Below, in pieces: positions 2 through 7,804 of a stretch of DNA of 7,804 bases. How positions within the stretch are numbered: the first letter of the stretch is position 1; each line of letters opens with the position of its first letter. The stretch is from an uncultured Thermoleophilia bacterium (GTDB taxonomy: Bacteria > Actinomycetota > Thermoleophilia > UBA2241), in the NCBI GenBank assembly GCA_903921965.1, contig CAIXSE010000319.1, positions 1-7,804 on the forward strand, given 5' to 3'. Below the pieces are notes generated by a model that was not told the DNA's origin, searched no databases, and was given only the letters and a program-made list of their open reading frames with translations. Made by a program: the position numbers and the translations under genes.

Positions 2-2833
2 ACGCTGCTGCGCGAGCGCCTCGGCCTCACCGGCGTCAAGGTCGCCTGCGACCAGGGCGCCTGCGGCGCCTGCACCGTCATCCTCGACGGGCGGCCGGTG
101 CTCTCGTGCACGACGCTCGCCGCCGAGGCCGACGGCTGCTCGGTGCTCACCGTCGAGGGCCTCGCCGAGGACGACCCGCTGATCGTCGCCTTCGCGACGC
201 AGGCGCAGCCCGGCCACGGGACGGCGCTGCAGTGCGGCTTCTGCACGCCCGGCATGGTGATGACCGCCAAGGCGCTGCTCCTGCGCACCCCGCAGCCGAC
301 CCGCGAGCAGGTGGTGGACGGCATGGCCGGCAACATCTGCCGCTGCGGGTGCTACCCGGGGATCGTCGAGGCGGTCGTGCGCGCCGGGGAGCTCGCGGCC
401 GGGCGGGACGCCGGACCGGCCGGAGAGCCGGCTGCGGAGCGTGTGGCGGCGCCCGGCGCCGGCCCCTTCGTCGGTTCGTACTCGCCGCGCGTCGACGCGC
501 TGGAGAAGGTCACCGGGCGCGCCGGCTACCTGGCCGACCTGGTCCTCGGCATGCGCGGCCGGGGCCTGCTGCACGCCAGCTGCCTGCACAGCCCGTACCC
601 CGCGGCTCGCATCGTGAGCCTCGACACGAGCCGCGCCGAGGCCATGCCGGGCGTCGTCGCCGTGCTCACCTGCGACGACGACGAGGTCCGCCGGCTCAAG
701 CCGACGAACGCCAGCTGGACGCCCTTCTACACGGCGTCCTACGAGCGCATGACCTGGCCCGCGTACCGCGACCGCCGGGTGCTGGGCGACACGGCGTACT
801 GGGCCGGGGACGAGGTCGGCGTGGTCGTCGCGGCCGAGAGCAAGGAACAGGCGGACGCGGCGCTCGCGGCCGTCGAGGTCCAGTGGGAAGAGAAGCCGTT
901 CGTGCTCGACCTGTGGGAGGCCATGCAGCCCGGCGCGCCGGTGGTGCACCCCGAGATGAATCCAGAGGGCAACACCTTCCCGCCGCCGCCGCCGCTGACG
1001 GGCCCGACCTTCCTCGAGCGCGGCGACCTCGAAGAGGGCTTCGCCGCGTCCGACGTCGAGATCGAGTTCGAGACCTCGTACCACAACCCCGACCACGGCT
1101 GCCTCGAGACGCGCGGCTGCGTCGTGCGGTGGGACGGCGACCGCCTGACCTGCTGGACGAACTACTACGCCGCCGACCAGCCCCGCATCTCCCTGGCGGA
1201 CATGCTGGAGGTCCCGCTGAACCGCGTGCGGGTCATCAACCCGTACATCGGCGGCAGCTTCGGGCGCGGCAACGAGGCCGACCAGCCGTTCCTCGTCTTC
1301 ACCGCCCTGCTCGCGAAGCGCTGTGGGGGGCGCCCCGTGCTCTACCGCATGGACCGCCGCGAGGACTTCCACGACACGCGCTCGCCCGTGCTCTACAGGG
1401 TCCGCGCCGGCGTGCGTGACGACGGCACGATCCTGGCACTGCACACCAGGGCCTACAGCCGGGCCGGCGCCTACGCCGACGACACCATGGGCGCCGCCGA
1501 CACGGTACCCCGCGAGGTCGCCGAGCTCTCGCTGGCGCCCATCCCCAACCTCCGCATGGAGGCGTACTGCGTCTACACCAACACCGTCCCCGGCGGCGTG
1601 AAGCGCGGTATCGGCAACAACGAGCTCAACCTGGCCTGGGGACGCCTGCTCGACGAGATCGGCGAGCGGCTCGGCCTCGACCCCGTGGATGTCGCTCTCA
1701 GGAACATGGGCAACCCGTGGAACCCAAGGCCGGACGAGAGCCTGGCGGCGGTGCTGAACGAGGGCGCCGGCAGGATCGGCTGGAGCCGGCGCCGCAAGGC
1801 GCCCTCGGGTGCCGCGGACGGGCCGGCGAAGCGGCGCGGCCTCGGCATGTCGGTCCACAACACGTGGCACGCGGCCTGGCAGGAGATCCCTCGCGGCCGC
1901 GTGCAGGTCCGTCTGACGATGAACCCGGACGGGTCGGTGGTGCTCGACGCCCCCACCGCCGAGACGGGGACCGGCTCGAGCAGCTGCACGGTGTTCGCCT
2001 GCGCCGACGCGCTCGCCTGGCTGGGGGTCGCCGCCGCGGACATCACCTACCTGGCGCACACCGACACCGACCGCGGGCTCAAGGACATGGTGCAGACCGA
2101 CAGCGCCGTGTCGTACCTGCAGGCCGAGCTGATGCCCAGGGCCGCCGGGGAGCTCAGGGAGAAGGTGGTGGGGCACATCGCGGGCCTTCTGGAGGTGCCG
2201 CGGGACGAGGTGGACATCCGCGAGGGCCGTGTCTACTGGCCGGGCGGCCCCGGCGACGGGCGCCCGCTGGCCGAGGTCATGCTGGAGAAGTCGGACCTCG
2301 CCGCCTTCGTCGTCGAGGTCGAGGACCTGCCCCCGGCCGAGGTCACGGGGTGCCCCTTCCTCGCCAGCTTCGTCGAGGTCGAGGTCGACACCGAGACCGG
2401 CGCCGTGGAGGTGGTCGAGGCCGTGCAGGCGACCGACTGCGGCAAGGTGATGTACCGGGCCGGCGCGGACGGGCAGCTCATCGGCGGCGTGACCATGGCC
2501 GCCAGCGAGGCGCTCCTCGAGGAGATCGTCCACGACGCGCGGACCGGGCTGCCCCTCAACTTCAACTGGGTCGACTACCGCATGGCGACGCTGGCCGACG
2601 CCCCGCAGGTCGCGCCGGCGGCGCTCGAGGTGTGGCGGGGCGCCGGCAACCACCCGGCGAGCGGTCTCGGCGAGTCGGCGATCACGGCGACGCCGGCCGC
2701 CATCGCCAACGCCGTGCGCAACGCCGTCGGCGTGCCGCTGTACGATCTGCCGATCACCCCGGGGAAGGTGCTGCAGGCGCTCGCTGACGGCCGTCGAGGG
2801 CCCGGCCCCGCAGGAACGGAGGCTCGGCCGTGA
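2..2833 (+). CDS. Xanthine dehydrogenase-family molybdoenzyme, fused [2Fe-2S] and molybdopterin subunits (5' partial)
   Basis: This is the catalytic chain of a molybdenum hydroxylase or reductase. It is open to the left edge, so the start codon and probably about 25-35 residues are missing; 943 residues are visible. The plant-type [2Fe-2S] domain comes first, with CDQGACGAC at about 47-73 and a fourth Cys near 107. The second [2Fe-2S] domain follows, with CGFC (233-244) and CRCGC (338-352). After a Gly/Ala/Pro-rich linker (about 392-475) the molybdopterin domain runs to the end. It shows GGSFGRGNE (1250-1276), KRGIG (1601-1615), and the motif GLGESAI whose Glu (codon 2672-2674) matches the catalytic base of the family (Glu1261 of bovine xanthine oxidase, Glu869 of Desulfovibrio aldehyde oxidoreductase MOP). 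The Fe-S/Mo fusion without FAD resembles MOP, but here a separate FAD subunit overlaps it by 4 bases. Several Mo-site motifs are atypical (WTNYY, GTG for GQG), so the substrate cannot be named. The family call is secure. Confidence 0.93.
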   Translation, partial: TLLRERLGLTGVKVACDQGACGACTVILDGRPVLSCTTLAAEADGCSVLTVEGLAEDDPLIVAFATQAQPGHGTALQCGFCTPGMVMTAKALLLRTPQPTREQVVDGMAGNICRCGCYPGIVEAVVRAGELAAGRDAGPAGEPAAERVAAPGAGPFVGSYSPRVDALEKVTGRAGYLADLVLGMRGRGLLHASCLHSPYPAARIVSLDTSRAEAMPGVVAVLTCDDDEVRRLKPTNASWTPFYTASYERMTWPAYRDRRVLGDTAYWAGDEVGVVVAAESKEQADAALAAVEVQWEEKPFVLDLWEAMQPGAPVVHPEMNPEGNTFPPPPPLTGPTFLERGDLEEGFAASDVEIEFETSYHNPDHGCLETRGCVVRWDGDRLTCWTNYYAADQPRISLADMLEVPLNRVRVINPYIGGSFGRGNEADQPFLVFTALLAKRCGGRPVLYRMDRREDFHDTRSPVLYRVRAGVRDDGTILALHTRAYSRAGAYADDTMGAADTVPREVAELSLAPIPNLRMEAYCVYTNTVPGGVKRGIGNNELNLAWGRLLDEIGERLGLDPVDVALRNMGNPWNPRPDESLAAVLNEGAGRIGWSRRRKAPSGAADGPAKRRGLGMSVHNTWHAAWQEIPRGRVQVRLTMNPDGSVVLDAPTAETGTGSSSCTVFACADALAWLGVAAADITYLAHTDTDRGLKDMVQTDSAVSYLQAELMPRAAGELREKVVGHIAGLLEVPRDEVDIREGRVYWPGGPGDGRPLAEVMLEKSDLAAFVVEVEDLPPAEVTGCPFLASFVEVEVDTETGAVEVVEAVQATDCGKVMYRAGADGQLIGGVTMAASEALLEEIVHDARTGLPLNFNWVDYRMATLADAPQVAPAALEVWRGAGNHPASGLGESAITATPAAIANAVRNAVGVPLYDLPITPGKVLQALADGRRGPGPAGTEARP
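2813..2822 (+). promoter_or_regulatory. Ribosome binding site for the FAD/GltD fusion gene
   Basis: GGAACGGAGG ends 7 bases before the GTG at 2830. It lies inside the last codons of the upstream gene, whose TGA (2831-2833) overlaps the GTG. The good Shine-Dalgarno match plus the GTGA overlap supports this start and suggests translational coupling of the two subunits. Confidence 0.7.
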
Positions 2834-5175
2834 GCGGCGCGCGGATCGACTACCGGGCGCCGGCCGGAGTGGGGGAGGCGGTGGAGCTCCTGCGCGCCGG
2901 CAGCGGCAGGGCGCGCCTGCTGGCCGGCGGCACCGACATCTACGGCGTCCTCAAGGCCGGCGTCCACGGCCGCGAGGAGGTGCTGCTCGTCGACCTGAAG
3001 AGGATCCCGGGCCTCGACGGCATCGTCGAGGGGGACGGCGAGGTCGTGATCGGCGCGCTCACCCGCCTCGCCGACGTCGCGCGGGACGGACTCGTCGGCG
3101 CGCGCCTGCCCCTGCTCGCGGAGGCGGCGCGCGCCGTCGCCTCGCCGCAGCTGCGCGAGATGGCCACGGTCGGCGGCAACCTCTGCCAGGAGACCCGCTG
3201 CTGGTACTACCGGGCCCCGGACGACGCGTTCCACTGCCACCGCAAGGGCGGCGAGCTGTGCGCCGCGGCCGTCGGCGACAACCGCTATCACTCGGTCTTC
3301 GGCTCGGCGCGGGTCGTCGACCCGCCGTGCGTCGTGGCCTGCCCGAACCACAACGGCATCCCGGTCTACCTCGAGGCCCTGCGGCGGCTGGACCTGGACG
3401 AGGCGGCGCGCCTGCTGCTCGCCGAGAACCCGCTGGCCGCCATCACGGGCCGCGTCTGCCCGCACGCCTGCGAGCAGGGCTGCAACCGCTGCGGCCTCGA
3501 CGAGGCGCTGTCGATCCGCAGCCTGGAGCGCGAGGTCGGCGACCACGTCCTGGACCACCCGGCGGCGTTCCTCGGCGACGCGCCGCCGGCGACCGGCAGG
3601 CGCGTGGCCGTGGTCGGCTCCGGACCGGCGGGCCTGACGGCCGCGTACTTCCTCCGCCGCCGCGGCCACGCCGTGACCGTGTACGAGCGCGAGGCCGGGC
3701 CGGGCGGGATGCTCGCGCTCGGCATCCCGCCGTTCCGGCTGGCGCCCGAGGTCGTGTCCGGCGTCGTCGGGCTCTTCGAGCAGCTCGGCGTCGAGTTCCG
3801 CTGCGGCGTCGACGTCGGCGTCTCGGTCCCGCTCGAGGACCTGCAGGCGACGCACGACGCCGTCGTCGTCGCCTGCGGCGCCTGGGAGTCCCCGCGCATC
3901 GGCATCGAGGGCGAGGATGCCACGGTCTCCGGCCTTGACTACCTCCGCAGTGCGGCGCTCGACCTCGGGTGGCGCGAGACGGGCGACGTGCTCGTGGTCG
4001 GCGGCGGCAACGTGGCCGTCGACGCCGCCATGACGGCGCTCGCGCGTGGCGCGGCATCCGTGACGATGGTCTGCCTCGAGGCGCGCGCCGAGATGCCCGC
4101 CTTCGAGTGGGAGGTGACCGAGGCGCTCGAGGCCGGCGTCAGGCTCCGCGACCGGTGGGGCCCCCGAGCCGTGCGCCTGGAGGCGGGCGCCGTGACCGGC
4201 GTCGAGCTGGTGCGCTGTACCGCCGTGCTCGACGAGCACGGCGCCTTCTGCCCGACCCTCGACGAGACGGTGCGCGACGTCTTGCCGGCCGGCAAGGTCG
4301 TCATGGCGGTCGGCCAGCGCGTCGACCGGTCGTGGCTCCCCGCGCTCGACGACGACCCGGCCGCGAGCGGGCGCACCACGCCCACACTCGTCTGCGGCGA
4401 CGCCGCGACCGGTCCGGCGACGATCGTCGAGGCCGTCGCCTCCGGGCGGGCGGCCGCGGCGTCCATCGCCGGGCTGCTGTCTTCAGGGACCGCCGAGGAG
4501 GGCTCGCGCCCGCGCCGGTCCGGACTGCTTCCGGCGGACGACGAGAGTCCCGGCCGGACCTCCCGCGCCCTGACCGGCGCCGCACAGCCGGGCCTCCGGG
4601 CCCGGCGGGACGGCGACTCCACGAGCTGCCGGAGCGAGGTGGGCGAGGAGGCCAGGCGCTGCCTGGACTGCAGCTGCATCGCCGTCTCCCCGTCGGATCT
4701 GGCCCCGGCGCTGATCGCCCTCGGCGCGCGCGTCGAGACCTCGGTGCGCACGCTCGACGTGGCGCAGCTGTTCGCGGCCTCGCAAGACGGGTCCACCGTC
4801 CTCGAGCCGGACGAGATTCTGCTGCGCGTCCGCGTCCCGCTTCCCGGCGGCGACGCGGCCGGCGCGTTCGCCAAGTTCAGGGAGCGCAGGTCCGTCGACT
4901 TCCCCATCGTGAACGTCGCCGTGCAGCTCGACATGAGCGCGTCGCGCATCGTTGCCGCCCGCCTCTGCGCGGGCGCCGTGGCGCCGGTGCCGCTGCGCCT
5001 CGTCGAGGCCGAACGATGCCTGGCCGGCCGGGAACGCAGCCTCGCCGTGTGCCGTGAGGCGGCCGAGGCGGCCATGGGCAGCGCCGTGCCGCTGCGGAGC
5101 AACAGCTACAAGCGCCGGGTCCTCGGGGCCCTCGTGCGGCGTGCCCTGGAGCAGGCCATGGGAGTCGCGCCGTGA
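2830..5175 (+). CDS. FAD subunit of a molybdenum hydroxylase with an inserted GltD-like NAD(P)H oxidoreductase module
   Basis: This 781-residue protein is about 2.5 times the usual length of a CoxM/XdhB-type FAD subunit (near 290-330). Residues 5-158 are the first part of the FAD-binding fold, with LLAGGTDIYG (30-39) and ATVGGNLC (112-119). Residues 616-776 complete it: CIAVSPSDLAPALIALGA, then the C-terminal CO-dehydrogenase flavoprotein domain from about 680 (FAKFRERRSVDFPIVNVAV). Between them sits a GltD/NfnB-like oxidoreductase (see separate entry). Cysteines 119, 124, 136, 144 and 616 flank the junction and resemble the extra [4Fe-4S] loop known in the beta subunit of 4-hydroxybenzoyl-CoA reductase. 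The protein most likely carries electrons between NAD(P)H and the [2Fe-2S]/Mo chain encoded just upstream, with which it overlaps by 4 bases. The frame is uninterrupted and codon use matches the neighbours, so this looks like a real fusion, not an assembly join. The direction of electron flow is not known. Confidence 0.92.
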   Translation: MSGARIDYRAPAGVGEAVELLRAGSGRARLLAGGTDIYGVLKAGVHGREEVLLVDLKRIPGLDGIVEGDGEVVIGALTRLADVARDGLVGARLPLLAEAARAVASPQLREMATVGGNLCQETRCWYYRAPDDAFHCHRKGGELCAAAVGDNRYHSVFGSARVVDPPCVVACPNHNGIPVYLEALRRLDLDEAARLLLAENPLAAITGRVCPHACEQGCNRCGLDEALSIRSLEREVGDHVLDHPAAFLGDAPPATGRRVAVVGSGPAGLTAAYFLRRRGHAVTVYEREAGPGGMLALGIPPFRLAPEVVSGVVGLFEQLGVEFRCGVDVGVSVPLEDLQATHDAVVVACGAWESPRIGIEGEDATVSGLDYLRSAALDLGWRETGDVLVVGGGNVAVDAAMTALARGAASVTMVCLEARAEMPAFEWEVTEALEAGVRLRDRWGPRAVRLEAGAVTGVELVRCTAVLDEHGAFCPTLDETVRDVLPAGKVVMAVGQRVDRSWLPALDDDPAASGRTTPTLVCGDAATGPATIVEAVASGRAAAASIAGLLSSGTAEEGSRPRRSGLLPADDESPGRTSRALTGAAQPGLRARRDGDSTSCRSEVGEEARRCLDCSCIAVSPSDLAPALIALGARVETSVRTLDVAQLFAASQDGSTVLEPDEILLRVRVPLPGGDAAGAFAKFRERRSVDFPIVNVAVQLDMSASRIVAARLCAGAVAPVPLRLVEAERCLAGRERSLAVCREAAEAAMGSAVPLRSNSYKRRVLGALVRRALEQAMGVAP
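3304..4674 (+). other. GltD/NfnB-like Fe-S flavoprotein module nested inside the FAD subunit (residues 159-615)
   Basis: The insert starts with a Fer4_20-like Fe-S region: CVVACP at 167-172, NPLAAITGRVCPHACEQGC at 200-218 and C221, the cysteine pattern of GltD, NfnB/PreT and dihydropyrimidine dehydrogenase N-termini. An FAD dinucleotide fold follows (VVGSGPAG 261-268, E286, GGML 292-295, GIPPFRL 298-304). A second, NAD(P)H-binding Rossmann fold follows that (VVGGGNVAVDAA 389-400). It closes with the family's FAD-contact motif CGDAATGPATIVEAVASGRAA (522-542). Residues 551-605 are a low-complexity linker rich in Ser, Arg, Gly and Ala. The insert ends with EEARRCLDC (606-614), a motif usually found at the N-terminus of the GltD Fe-S domain or in C-terminal Fe-S tails of relatives. 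Domain identity is clear; the exact boundaries are uncertain by several residues. Confidence 0.88.
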
Positions 5176-5216
5176 GATCCGCTGCGCGAGCTCGCCGGCG
5201 GAGGGGCTGATCGCGT

Positions 5217-5222
5217 GGGAGG
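5217..5222 (+). promoter_or_regulatory. Ribosome binding site choosing the start of the flavoprotein gene
   Basis: GGGAGG ends 7 bases before the GTG at 5230 and favours that start. A competing site, GGAGGGG at 5200-5206, lies 8 bases before the in-frame GTG at 5215. The longer form would add only MGGGG, which looks like translated Shine-Dalgarno sequence, so 5230 is preferred. Confidence 0.5.
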
Positions 5223-5229
5223 TGGCGGT

Positions 5230-6564
5230 GTGGAGAACCACGATGTGGTGGTGGTGGGTGCGGGCGTGTCTGGTCTGGCGACGGCCTGGCACCTCCGCGA
5301 CCGGGACGTGCTCGTCCTCGAGGAGACTGACCGGCTCGGCGGTCGCATGCGTTCAGAGCCGCGCGCCGACACGTGGCTGAACTTCGCTGCCCACGTGTAC
5401 GGCGGGGACGGTACGGCCACCGACCGCCTGTTCCGCGGACTCGGCGTGACGGCTCTGCCTCTGCCCGGCAAGCTCGCGGCTCTCGCGTACGCCGGCCGGA
5501 TCGTCACGAGCCCCGTGGAGACGTACCCGGCGCTTCTGCCGCTGCCGCCGGCGTCGCGTGCCGCGCTCGTGCGTGCGGGGCTCCGGCTGCGCTTCGACGT
5601 CGCGCGCTACGCGCGGGCTGCCCGGCTGCGCGCCGGCGAGACGCCGGCCGAGCGGCAGGCGCGCATCCTCGCCTTCATGGACGACCGCTCGTTCAGCGAG
5701 CACATGGGGCCGCTGCCGCCCGACGTGGACGGCATGTTCCGGTGCACCCTGACGCGCTCGTCCGGAGACCCGGAGGAACTCGCGGCCGGGTATGGCGTCG
5801 GCTACTTCAACCTCGTCTGGGACCGCTCGGCGGGCCTGTCGCGCGGCGTGGTCGGAGGTCCCGGCGCCGTCATCGAGCGGCTCGCCGCGGCGTTGCCGCC
5901 CGTCGAGACCGGATCGAGGGCGGTCCGCGTCGAGCAGGACGCGCACGGCGTCCGCGTGACGGTGCGGCGCGGCGACGAGGAGCGCGTGGTCGGGGCGGGC
6001 GCCGCCGTCCTGGCCGTGCCGGCGCCGGTGGCGGCCGACCTCGTCGCCGGACTGCCTGCCGAGACCGCCGCCGCCCTGCGGGCCGTGCGCTACGGACCTT
6101 ACGTGGTCGGTGCCTTCCTGGTGGACGGCGCCGACCTGCCCTGGCGCGGCCTGTACGCCGTGGCCACGCCCGGCCGCAGCTTCAGCATGGCGTACAACAT
6201 CGGCAACGTCCAGGAGCACCCCTCGCTGCCGCGTCCGCGCCACGGCAGCGTGATGGTCTACACGGCGGCGTCCCAGGGCCGCAGGCTGCTGGCCGAGGAC
6301 GACGACACCATCGCCGAGCGCTACACGCGCGACCTCGCCGAGGTCTTCCCGGGGTGCGAGGGGCTCGTCAAGGAGGTGGTCGTCCGGCGCTGGCCGCGGG
6401 GCCTGCCGTTCGCGCACGCCGGCCGCGGGCGCCTGCAGCCGGCTCTCACGCGGCCGCTGGGCCGCGTCCATCTGGTCGGTGACTACCTCGGCACGAGGTA
6501 CGTGGAGACCTGCGCGGAGACCGCGGAGGCCGTGGCGCTGCGTGTCAGGGGCTGGCAGACCTGA
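5230..6564 (+). CDS. FAD-dependent oxidoreductase, amine oxidase/protoporphyrinogen oxidase-like
   Basis: This is a 444-residue flavoprotein of the amine oxidase/HemG(HemY)/phytoene desaturase superfamily. The N-terminus has the FAD dinucleotide motif VVVVGAGVSGLATAWHL (6-22), the ribose-binding acidic residue E31, and LGGRM (36-40), the GG signature of this superfamily. The middle has GVVGGPGAVIERLAAALP (about 210-227) followed by a beta-strand pair with VRVTVR, as in protoporphyrinogen oxidases. The C-terminus has the second FAD contact VHLVGDYLG (413-421), followed by VETCAETAEAVAL in place of the usual GA..SG pattern. No signal peptide or membrane segment is seen, so it is probably cytoplasmic. 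It starts 54 bases after the molybdoenzyme FAD subunit and probably belongs to the same operon. Being close to haem or carotenoid enzymes in fold does not give it that function: no haem or carotenoid gene is nearby. The substrate is unknown. GTG 5215 is an alternative start. Confidence 0.85.
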   Translation: MENHDVVVVGAGVSGLATAWHLRDRDVLVLEETDRLGGRMRSEPRADTWLNFAAHVYGGDGTATDRLFRGLGVTALPLPGKLAALAYAGRIVTSPVETYPALLPLPPASRAALVRAGLRLRFDVARYARAARLRAGETPAERQARILAFMDDRSFSEHMGPLPPDVDGMFRCTLTRSSGDPEELAAGYGVGYFNLVWDRSAGLSRGVVGGPGAVIERLAAALPPVETGSRAVRVEQDAHGVRVTVRRGDEERVVGAGAAVLAVPAPVAADLVAGLPAETAAALRAVRYGPYVVGAFLVDGADLPWRGLYAVATPGRSFSMAYNIGNVQEHPSLPRPRHGSVMVYTAASQGRRLLAEDDDTIAERYTRDLAEVFPGCEGLVKEVVVRRWPRGLPFAHAGRGRLQPALTRPLGRVHLVGDYLGTRYVETCAETAEAVALRVRGWQT

Positions 6565-6687: not shown

Positions 6688-6711
6688 GAAGTGATATGCC
6701 TATATCACTTC
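6688..6711. promoter_or_regulatory. Perfect AT-rich inverted repeat, probable operator
   Basis: The arms GAAGTGATAT (6688-6697) and ATATCACTTC (6702-6711) are exact reverse complements separated by GCCT. It is the most AT-rich patch in a very GC-rich window and sits in the only sizeable intergenic region, upstream of the AOR-like gene. The length and symmetry fit a dimeric regulator's binding site. The spacing (GTGA, 10 bases, TCAC) does not fit the CRP/FNR pattern, so the regulator family is unknown. It could also fold as an RNA stem with a 4-base loop, but no T-run follows to make it a terminator. Confidence 0.6.
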
Positions 6712-6781: not shown

Positions 6782-7804
6782 TTGACCGACTTCCTTACGA
6801 TCGATCTGACGACGGGCGCCGCAAGCCAGGAGCCGCTGGCTCCCGAGTACGCGGCGATCGGCGGCCACGGGCTCACCTCCGCGGTCGTGGCGAGGGATGT
6901 GGACCCCGCGGCCGATCCGCTCGGGCCGGACAACGTGCTCGTGATCGCCGCCGGGATCTTCGCCGGGACGACGGTCCCCAACGGCCACCGCCTCTCGGTG
7001 GGCGGCAAGAGCCCGCTCACCGGCGGCATCAAGGAGGCCAACTCCGGCGGCTCCGCGGCGCGCGCCATGGCGCGGCTGGGGCTGCGCGGCATCGAGCTCA
7101 AGGGCCGCGCCGCCGAGCTCAGCGTGCTCGAGATCGGCGCGGGTGGGGCGAAGCTGGCCCCCGCGCCCGAGCTCGCGGGCCTCGGCTCCTACGCCACCGT
7201 CGACGCTCTCAGGGAGAAGTACGGCGACAAGCCCTCGTTCATCTGCATCGGCCCGGCCGGCGAGATGATGATGAAGGCCGCTGCGGTCATCGTCACGACC
7301 GCCGACCACTACCTGCGCGCCGCCGCGCGCGGCGGCCTCGGCGCCGTCATGGGTTCCAAGAACATCAAGGCCGTCGTGATCGACAGCACCGGCGGCCCCG
7401 GTGTGTCCGTCGCCGACCCCGAGGCGCTCAAGGACCTCTCGAAGCAGCTCACCGAGGGCATCCTCTCGCACCCGGCGATGGCCGCCCTCGAGGCGCTCGG
7501 CTCGGCCTTCCTCATCAACGTCACGCAGTCCATGGGCTGTCTGGCCACGAAGAACTTCTCCGCGGGCACGTTCGAGAACGCCGCCGCCATCACCGGCGAG
7601 CACATGGTCGAGCTGATGAACGCGCGGCCCATGGCCGACCCCAGGCACAGTTGCATGCGCGGCTGCATCATCAACTGCTCGCAGGTGTACACCGACGAGG
7701 ACGGCGTGCCGATCACCTCCGGCCTCGAGTTCGAGACCATCGGCCTGGTCGGCTCCAACTGCCTGATCGACGACATCGACCAGGTGGCGCGCATCGACCG
7801 CCTC
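6782..7804 (+). CDS. Aldehyde:ferredoxin oxidoreductase (AOR) family tungsten/molybdenum enzyme (3' partial)
   Basis: AOR-family enzymes hold W or Mo on two pterins plus one [4Fe-4S] cluster and oxidise aldehydes to acids, usually with ferredoxin. The 341 visible residues are roughly half of a typical 600-700. The N-terminal strand FLTIDLTTG (4-12) and GGHGLTS (27-33) match the usual VDL..G and GG.GL motifs. SVGGKSPLTGGIKEANSGG (about 76-94) is the classic pterin-binding segment, and IGPAGEMMMKAAAV and ARGGLGAVMGSKNIKAVV are family signatures. HSCMRGCIINC supplies cysteines 291, 295 and 299 for the [4Fe-4S] cluster; the fourth, by analogy with Pyrococcus AOR Cys494, lies beyond the edge. TSGLEFETIGLVGSN follows, as in YdhV-like members. 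The cysteine spacing is CX3CX3C, against CX2CX3C in Pyrococcus AOR. It starts at TTG after its own apparent control region. The substrate and the metal cannot be told from sequence. Confidence 0.93.
   Translation, partial: MTDFLTIDLTTGAASQEPLAPEYAAIGGHGLTSAVVARDVDPAADPLGPDNVLVIAAGIFAGTTVPNGHRLSVGGKSPLTGGIKEANSGGSAARAMARLGLRGIELKGRAAELSVLEIGAGGAKLAPAPELAGLGSYATVDALREKYGDKPSFICIGPAGEMMMKAAAVIVTTADHYLRAAARGGLGAVMGSKNIKAVVIDSTGGPGVSVADPEALKDLSKQLTEGILSHPAMAALEALGSAFLINVTQSMGCLATKNFSAGTFENAAAITGEHMVELMNARPMADPRHSCMRGCIINCSQVYTDEDGVPITSGLEFETIGLVGSNCLIDDIDQVARIDRL

Follow-up and report, generated by a model that had tools for sequence, protein, structure and literature searches.

A GltD/NfnB-type NAD(P)H module nested within the FAD subunit of a xanthine-oxidase-family molybdenum enzyme, a putative built-in electron input

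Electron supply to the xanthine-oxidase-family reductases of anaerobes is known for few enzymes. 4-Hydroxybenzoyl-CoA reductase (4-HBCR) accepts reduced ferredoxin as donor, and the related urolithin dehydroxylase of Enterocloster (Ucdh), a three-subunit member of the family nearest to 4-HBCR, uses NADH in vitro; the accessible part of that report describes the medium subunit of Ucdh as carrying flavin adenine dinucleotide (FAD) only and mentions no GltD module (PMC12771579). In Escherichia coli, XdhD-YgfM is an NADH-driven reductive enzyme of the same family, and the GltD-related protein YgfK is encoded in the same cluster (PMC12507026, PMC2276186). XdhD has been purified with a co-purifying protein taken as YgfM and carries out the NADH-driven reduction of uric acid; YgfK, as far as the available text goes, is a separate protein acting on yanthine itself, and YgfM, of about 30 kDa, has no room for a module (PMC12507026). 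GltD-like proteins are described as using low-potential [4Fe-4S] clusters to hand electrons of NAD(P)H to another protein or domain (PMC8097209), and in StnC the GltD module (residues 102-565) likewise lies inside another redox protein (PMC10482914). Here, an arrangement is described in which such a module is part of the electron-input subunit itself. It is encoded by contig CAIXSE010000319.1 (assembly GCA_903921965.1) of an uncultured Thermoleophilia bacterium, of which the whole stretch of 7,804 nucleotides was analysed (hereafter, the window). One gene of the window, hereafter the nested gene, encodes a 781-residue product that is a xanthine-oxidase-family FAD subunit (residues 1-158 and 616-781) enclosing a 457-residue module of the GltD/NfnB type. 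This subunit probably takes electrons from NADH within its own chain and drives a reductive reaction with them.

Fusions involving molybdoprotein domains were surveyed in 2018 across about 5,900 organisms, and in the portion of that survey at hand GltD (COG0493) is found with the dimethyl sulfoxide reductase family and not with the xanthine-oxidase family; the survey was perhaps limited to molybdenum-binding subunits, so that an insertion in a FAD subunit may have escaped it (PMC6147048). A 2021 review on modules of the GltD kind deals, in its accessible sections, with glutamate synthase, dihydropyrimidine dehydrogenase, Nfn and AegA (PMC8097209). In text searches of the literature, which covered few subscription journals, no description of the nested arrangement was recognised, and an earlier one is possible.

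Along the chain of the nested protein, the Pfam domains follow the order FAD_binding_5 (6-122), Fer4_20 (164-240), Pyr_redox_2 (258-503) and CO_deh_flav_C (684-776), which agrees with the original prediction of an oxidoreductase module nested within the FAD subunit of a molybdenum hydroxylase. The host part carries FAD_binding_5 and CO_deh_flav_C as one fold, and the insert carries Fer4_20 followed by two Rossmann folds, a content that had been read from the sequence and is borne out by Pfam and by fold matches. Six relatives without the module (L034, L035, L036, L038, L039 and L042, with aligned stretches of 302-333 residues) represent the empty site: only 3-4 residues separate an HSIFG-like stretch (HSIFG in three of them; HALFD, HALFD and HGLMG in the others) from the cysteine equivalent to C616, and the equivalents of C124, C136, C144 and C616 are kept. 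Alignment to these relatives upholds the break of the host fold at G158 and its resumption at C616 and, with the conserved rows counted below, the view of an insertion at a fixed site of the [4Fe-4S] loop and not an end-to-end fusion. An AlphaFold2 model of the nested protein (predicted local distance difference test, pLDDT, 89.2; predicted template modelling score, pTM, 0.88) recovers both host and module folds when compared with known structures, the two host halves reassembling and aligning jointly as one fold, a point that the original prediction had left to modelling.

Conservation was counted over 216 rows, made up of the window, ten genome loci and 205 proteins, some of them partial; genome G026 contributes neither its second nor its third nested copy, and of the copies from the scans of G003 and G002 relatives L044 alone is counted. 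A smaller alignment (A1) comprises the window plus 113 of the 120 homologues that the search described below lists, omitting P0006, P0007, P0013, P0016, P0018, P0019 and P0020. The FAD motifs of the host are retained, both AGGxD (G33, G34 and D36 in 215 rows, with one gap) and GGN (G116 and N117 in all 216), and conserved motifs of this kind suggest two FADs and several iron-sulfur (Fe-S) clusters in the nested chain. Two further residues stand out by their conservation, H154, kept in every row, and C463, kept in 208 (six gaps, one S and one P).

Host and module meet at cysteines. Four loop cysteines, the equivalents of C124, C136, C144 and C616, are common to the chains 5y6q_B and PaoB and the module-free L038, and the module thus enters the predicted [4Fe-4S] loop of the host between its third and fourth cysteines. 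The original prediction had placed the insertion next to this putative loop; the site was confirmed and can be given more sharply, in that the insert splits the predicted loop itself. Eleven (almost) invariant cysteines together with E233 make up twelve candidate ligands, enough for three [4Fe-4S] clusters. Following the pattern of dihydropyrimidine dehydrogenase and NfnB, C171, C210, C214 and E233 are assigned to a cluster proximal to the module FAD and C167, C218, C611 and C614 to a distal one, while C124, C136, C144 and C616 would hold the host cluster. C611 and C614 are present in 203 of the 216 rows, the other 13 having gaps and none a substitution, and C616 in 204 (11 gaps and one H). 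The C-x2-C-x-C motif formed by residues 611, 614 and 616 would therefore serve two adjoining clusters, the distal one of the module and that of the host. The alpha carbons of residues that stand one apart lie no more than about 7.3 Å from each other. Because C614 and C616 are separated by one residue, a correct assignment would oblige the distal module cluster and the host cluster to lie side by side. In the alignments, the place of E233 is taken by K170 in StnC and by a Glu in NfnB-type chains; the proximal cluster has a Glu ligand in NfnB and Lys170 as ligand in StnC (PMC10482914). The coordinates of all these features are collected in Table 1.

Table 1. Features of the nested gene and its upstream neighbour in the window (residue numbers refer to the nested protein; conservation is given over the 216 rows)
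Feature	Coordinates	Strand	Description
Gene 1	2..2833	+	5' end beyond window; [2Fe-2S] domains fused to molybdenum-cofactor subunit, from Pfam and PDB relatives
Nested FAD subunit gene	2830..5175	+	Single open frame, GTG start at 2830, stop at 5175, 781 residues
Host N-terminal half, residues 1-158	2830..3303	+	FAD_binding_5 and first three cysteines of predicted [4Fe-4S] loop
C124, C136, C144	3199..3261	+	Proposed host [4Fe-4S] ligands 1-3; 216/216 rows
Inserted module, residues 159-615 (457 residues)	3304..4674	+	Fer4_20, FAD Rossmann fold, NAD(P)H Rossmann fold, C-terminal linker with EARRCLDC
C167, C171, C210, C214, C218	3328..3483	+	Putative module cluster cysteines; 216/216 rows
E233	3526..3528	+	Proposed Glu ligand of FAD-proximal cluster; 216/216 rows
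L416-E417	4075..4080	+	After second strand of NAD(P)H Rossmann fold; RR in NfnB/StnC-type relatives
C611-x2-C614-x-C616 junction motif	4660..4677	+	C611 and C614 proposed for distal module cluster, C616 for host cluster
Host C-terminal half, residues 616-781	4675..5175	+	Starts with fourth host-loop cysteine; CO_deh_flav_C; from Pfam and empty-site alignment

As for the host, the closest described chains are the FAD subunit of 4-HBCR (1rm6_B) and the PaoB-like subunits (5g5g_B and 5y6q_B), which share the FAD_binding_5/CO_deh_flav_C fold and the [2Fe-2S] and molybdenum partners with the nested protein but, with only 316-330 residues, are too short to hold an NAD(P)H module as well. The structure study of 4-HBCR cited in PMC12771579 reportedly found an additional [4Fe-4S] cluster and an inverted electron flow. 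Neither of the family models for the nearest functional analogues is reached by the nested protein, which scores 159.4 against the 4-HBCR subunit beta equivalog TIGR03195 (cut-off 404.55) and 241 against the YgfK family TIGR03315 (cut-off 835.3).

The insert shares with NfnB, GltD and dihydropyrimidine dehydrogenase the Fer4_20-type Fe-S domain and the FAD and NAD(P)H Rossmann folds, but its order is permuted. The CxxC of the putative distal cluster lies at the C-terminus of the insert (611 and 614), whereas in the two NfnB-type chains aligned, 4ylf_B and 5jca_L, it lies N-terminally, the EAxRCLxC piece standing in its expected place ahead of the Fe-S domain; the profile match to these two N-termini is weak when taken alone (i-Evalues 12 and 210). 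Both of these chains have a Glu at the proximal-cluster position, as the nested protein does. The best sequence and fold matches are StnC of the Sporomusa transhydrogenase (8oh5_C) and the NfnABC chains of Caldicellulosiruptor and Thermococcus (9bov_A and 9n5u_A), which keep the order of the nested module in one continuous match with EAxRCLxC at the end, yet carry a Lys at the proximal-cluster position and RR at the coenzyme site where the nested protein has Glu and LE. The permuted GltD module therefore occurs in two unrelated hosts, a NuoG-like protein in StnC and a FAD subunit in the nested protein, and its order should bring the module ends together at the distal cluster, easing insertion into a loop. 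A regular-expression count of N- against C-terminal CxxC among 15 long-enough modules from elsewhere gave none N-terminal, four C-terminal (two of them nested) and 11 neither, an expression too strict for the count to support anything. A module tree was built by a quick method from 27 nested rows (out of 216) together with 26 other modules, L021 being dropped. On this tree the nested label requires two changes, with the StnC-like L050 among the nested rows and the long-branched L051 beside them, and it speaks neither for nor against a nested module that arose only once.

With regard to the coenzyme, an acidic residue at the position following the second strand of the NAD(P)H Rossmann fold usually denotes NADH. 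Positions 416-417 read LE in 197 of the 216 rows, the window included, RR in 13, LV in one and VE in one, with gaps in four, and all five PDB chains aligned to the module have RR there. The motifs favour NADH in most of the rows examined and, apparently, NADPH in a minority. The RR members, apparently of the NADPH type, are L044, L057, L058, L059 and nine of the listed proteins, and on a FastTree tree that samples 80 full-length rows out of 201 and includes all 13 RR members, the coenzyme motif changes three times.

Homologues of the [2Fe-2S] and molybdenum parts adjoin the nested gene on the same strand in 17 of the 20 loci examined, and in the other three (L060, L074 and L079) the contig or the locus ends at the nested gene. 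Searched by tblastn with the molybdenum subunit of the window, these neighbours fall into two sets, with 43-84% (L001-L004, L066, L067, L069 and L073) and 26-31% identity over the main piece (L068, L070-L072, L075, L079 and L082-L085), two short pieces of the second set reaching 41-42%. One type of input subunit thus serves at least two diverged molybdenum subunits, and for this reason it looks like a general electron input and not a substrate-specific device. Among solved chains, the molybdenum subunit of the window best matches the aldehyde oxidoreductase 1sij, with 4-HBCR alpha third, and it aligns with 1sij at the GxGE segment, which holds the active-site Glu. No consistent substrate pathway was found in the families and neighbours assigned by Pfam and NCBIfam to the locus genes. 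L072 has XdhC and a MobA-like transferase as neighbours, which would fit a sulfurated cytosine-dinucleotide cofactor; L085 has a CoA-ligase-like protein and L082 an MFS-type protein, both below their cut-offs. The L072 locus also carries, at L072:600-3900 and about 5 kb from the nested gene, a CRISPR-like array with a 32-nt repeat and a period of about 66 nt.

The arrangement is common and recurs in several bacterial groups. About 5.8 billion proteins were searched for homologues. Of the 120 listed, 116 carry PF00941, PF14691 and PF03450 by reading of the domain table, a count of the kind that the original prediction had proposed, and the remaining four (P0007, P0018, P0019 and P0020) are without PF03450. 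With query residues 60-230, which span the first junction, 338 clusters were obtained at E <= 1e-30 from 7,994 scored candidates, and all 120 of these that were listed carry PF00941 and PF14691, likewise by reading of the table. Source names in the homologue lists include Thermoleophilia, Thermodesulfobacteriota, Anaerolineales, Elusimicrobia, Spirochaetia and Myxococcota, to which named genome contigs add Dehalococcoidales and Bdellovibrionales. Among the relatives of three genomes, a full-length nested gene was found in at least 9 of 99 (plus one partial) around a Thermoleophilia genome (G001), and a nested gene in at least 6 of 148 around a deltaproteobacterial genome (G003), whose own copy ends at a contig edge, and in at least 6 of 151 around a Dehalococcoidales genome (G002); these counts include the centre genome and are lower bounds, the best candidates per genome having been scored. 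One of these copies sits on a contig of 5,085,533 bases in a genome listed at 5.1 Mb, apparently in a single contig. Carriage by plasmids or phages was considered and dropped, as none of 532 matching records of the plasmid collection and none of 32 of the phage collection cover 80% of the query in one place. Among the listed homologues, P0006 (1061 residues) joins MoCoBD_2 and the nested FAD subunit in one protein, which may be a further fusion to the molybdenum subunit or a joined frame.

From this material we infer an electron path in which a GltD-type NAD(P)H module of permuted, StnC-like order, inserted between loop cysteines 3 and 4 of an HcrB/PaoB-like FAD subunit, would work as follows. 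NADH (NADPH in a minority) would reduce the module FAD, from which electrons would move to the proximal and then to the distal [4Fe-4S] cluster and, the C-x2-C-x-C motif tying the second and third clusters together, to the host [4Fe-4S] cluster; the host FAD and two [2Fe-2S] clusters would carry them on to molybdenum. Such a path would amount to the direct wire from NAD(P)H through Fe-S clusters to molybdenum put forward in the original prediction. In comparison with 4-HBCR, for which ferredoxin is the donor (PMC12771579), the module would replace ferredoxin as a built-in NADH dehydrogenase. The reaction driven is most likely a reductive one, such as a dehydroxylation, and the enzyme is presumably cytoplasmic. 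The reductive direction is favoured because oxidation with NAD+ should need no such module.

Several other explanations have to be weighed against this path. That an assembly or gene-prediction artefact joined two genes is practically discounted. Two genomic copies elsewhere do show one in-frame TGA each (G289:C41:80381-82753 and G280:C70:5991-8351, the latter in a genome with three nested copies), which may reflect recoding, decay or sequencing error, and the L004 copy is broken at undetermined bases; nevertheless, the identical junction recurs in 338 clusters from several named phyla, whole-genome copies exist, and one of them lies in the apparently single-contig genome of 5.09 Mb, on which grounds this reading was rejected. 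The frame break at 3304 or 4674 that the original prediction named as the sign of two separate genes was not seen, since in ten genome loci and in the full-length proteins one frame runs on across both junctions. Identical wiring could also run in reverse, the substrate being hydroxylated and the module passing electrons to NAD(P)+, an unlikely course that nonetheless keeps a real chance. Most known enzymes of the xanthine-oxidase family oxidise, and the neighbours look catabolic in L069 (a periplasmic binding protein and a thiolase), L001 (an amidohydrolase and, beside it, an alpha/beta hydrolase) and L003 (a CN hydrolase and an RraA-like aldolase). The FAD of ordinary xanthine dehydrogenase already reduces NAD+, however, so that it is hard to see what a further FAD and low-potential clusters would contribute. 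The GltD-type modules characterised so far are described mainly as carrying electrons from NAD(P)H to another site (PMC8097209), which also speaks against reverse flow.

Electron splitting, which the original prediction had held conceivable on account of the two FADs and several clusters, fares worse, and we regard as quite improbable a flavin-based bifurcation or confurcation in which the module FAD sends part of the NADH electrons down the molybdenum chain and the rest to a different acceptor. E233 and R303, conserved in 216 of 216 rows, correspond by alignment to the Glu ligand and to Arg201 of NfnB, both linked to bifurcation (PMC10482914), so that the nested protein has the NfnB-type pair of a Glu at the proximal-cluster position and a FAD-contacting Arg. 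However, StnC keeps this arginine (R239) and is reported not to bifurcate, its GltD domain having lost the function; NfnB itself bifurcates with NfnA (PMC10482914), and no NfnA-like partner ([2Fe-2S] and FAD) was found among the four proteins of the short window scanned with Pfam. Nor does any result of this analysis call for a second acceptor. A separate gltA/NfnB-type gene does lie about 6 kb from the nested gene at L084:925-2337 (TIGR01316 score 633.4, cut-off 471.75), and it shows only that the organism has both. A single-chain version, in which a low-potential electron would cross the C-x2-C-x-C bridge to molybdenum for an uphill dehydroxylation while the other goes to a second acceptor, is just as improbable; no molybdenum hydroxylase with flavin-based bifurcation built in is known to us, and this would be the first. 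The milder version, a ferredoxin-free, self-wired reductase family without bifurcation, is more likely. It is very improbable, finally, that the module works with some other partner, such as ferredoxin or another protein, and is only anchored on the molybdenum enzyme, with no electrons exchanged between the redox units. The poorly modelled host loop would allow it, but in the rows aligned the insertion falls at one fixed place between loop cysteines, and with C-x2-C-x-C spaced as it is the two sites would have to lie close together, provided that the ligands are assigned correctly.

The NADH-driven, reductive reading is itself weighed down at several points. Ucdh and XdhD-YgfM use NADH without a module in the same chain, so the use of NADH does not in itself call for a module. 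The listed equivalog cut-offs of NCBIfam are not reached by the molybdenum subunits scanned, and the binding protein, the amidohydrolase, the thiolase and the CoA-ligase-like protein among the neighbours also fit an oxidative catabolism. Few parts of the model are as uncertain as the host [4Fe-4S] loop, where residues 124-133 have pLDDT below 50. StnC-type modules, too, show a third cysteine after CxxC (CGC), and C616 could instead belong to the module cluster, with C119 as fourth ligand of the host cluster; C119 is A or G in two of the 216 rows and is absent from 5y6q_B and PaoB.

In the window, gene 1, with the Pfam domains MoCoBD_1, MoCoBD_2, Fer2_2 and Ald_Xan_dh_C, overlaps the nested gene by four bases (GTGA, 2830-2833). 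Downstream lie an amine-oxidase-type FAD protein (5215-6564) and an aldehyde ferredoxin oxidoreductase (AFOR_N and AFOR_C; 6782-7804), incomplete at the window end, and no link of either to the nested gene was found in the window open reading frames and their Pfam domains. A perfect 10-bp inverted repeat with a 4-bp spacer, GAAGTGATAT/ATATCACTTC, stands at 6688-6711, 70 bp upstream of the aldehyde ferredoxin oxidoreductase frame (6782), and is a possible operator.

If the proposed path is true, a single chain joins an NADH dehydrogenase to a molybdenum hydroxylase by means of a six-residue motif that supplies ligands to two [4Fe-4S] clusters. Tolerance of the insertion would also be explained, as the permuted module should have adjacent ends, and the junction would provide a sequence signature for spotting NAD(P)H-driven molybdenum enzymes in metagenomes.

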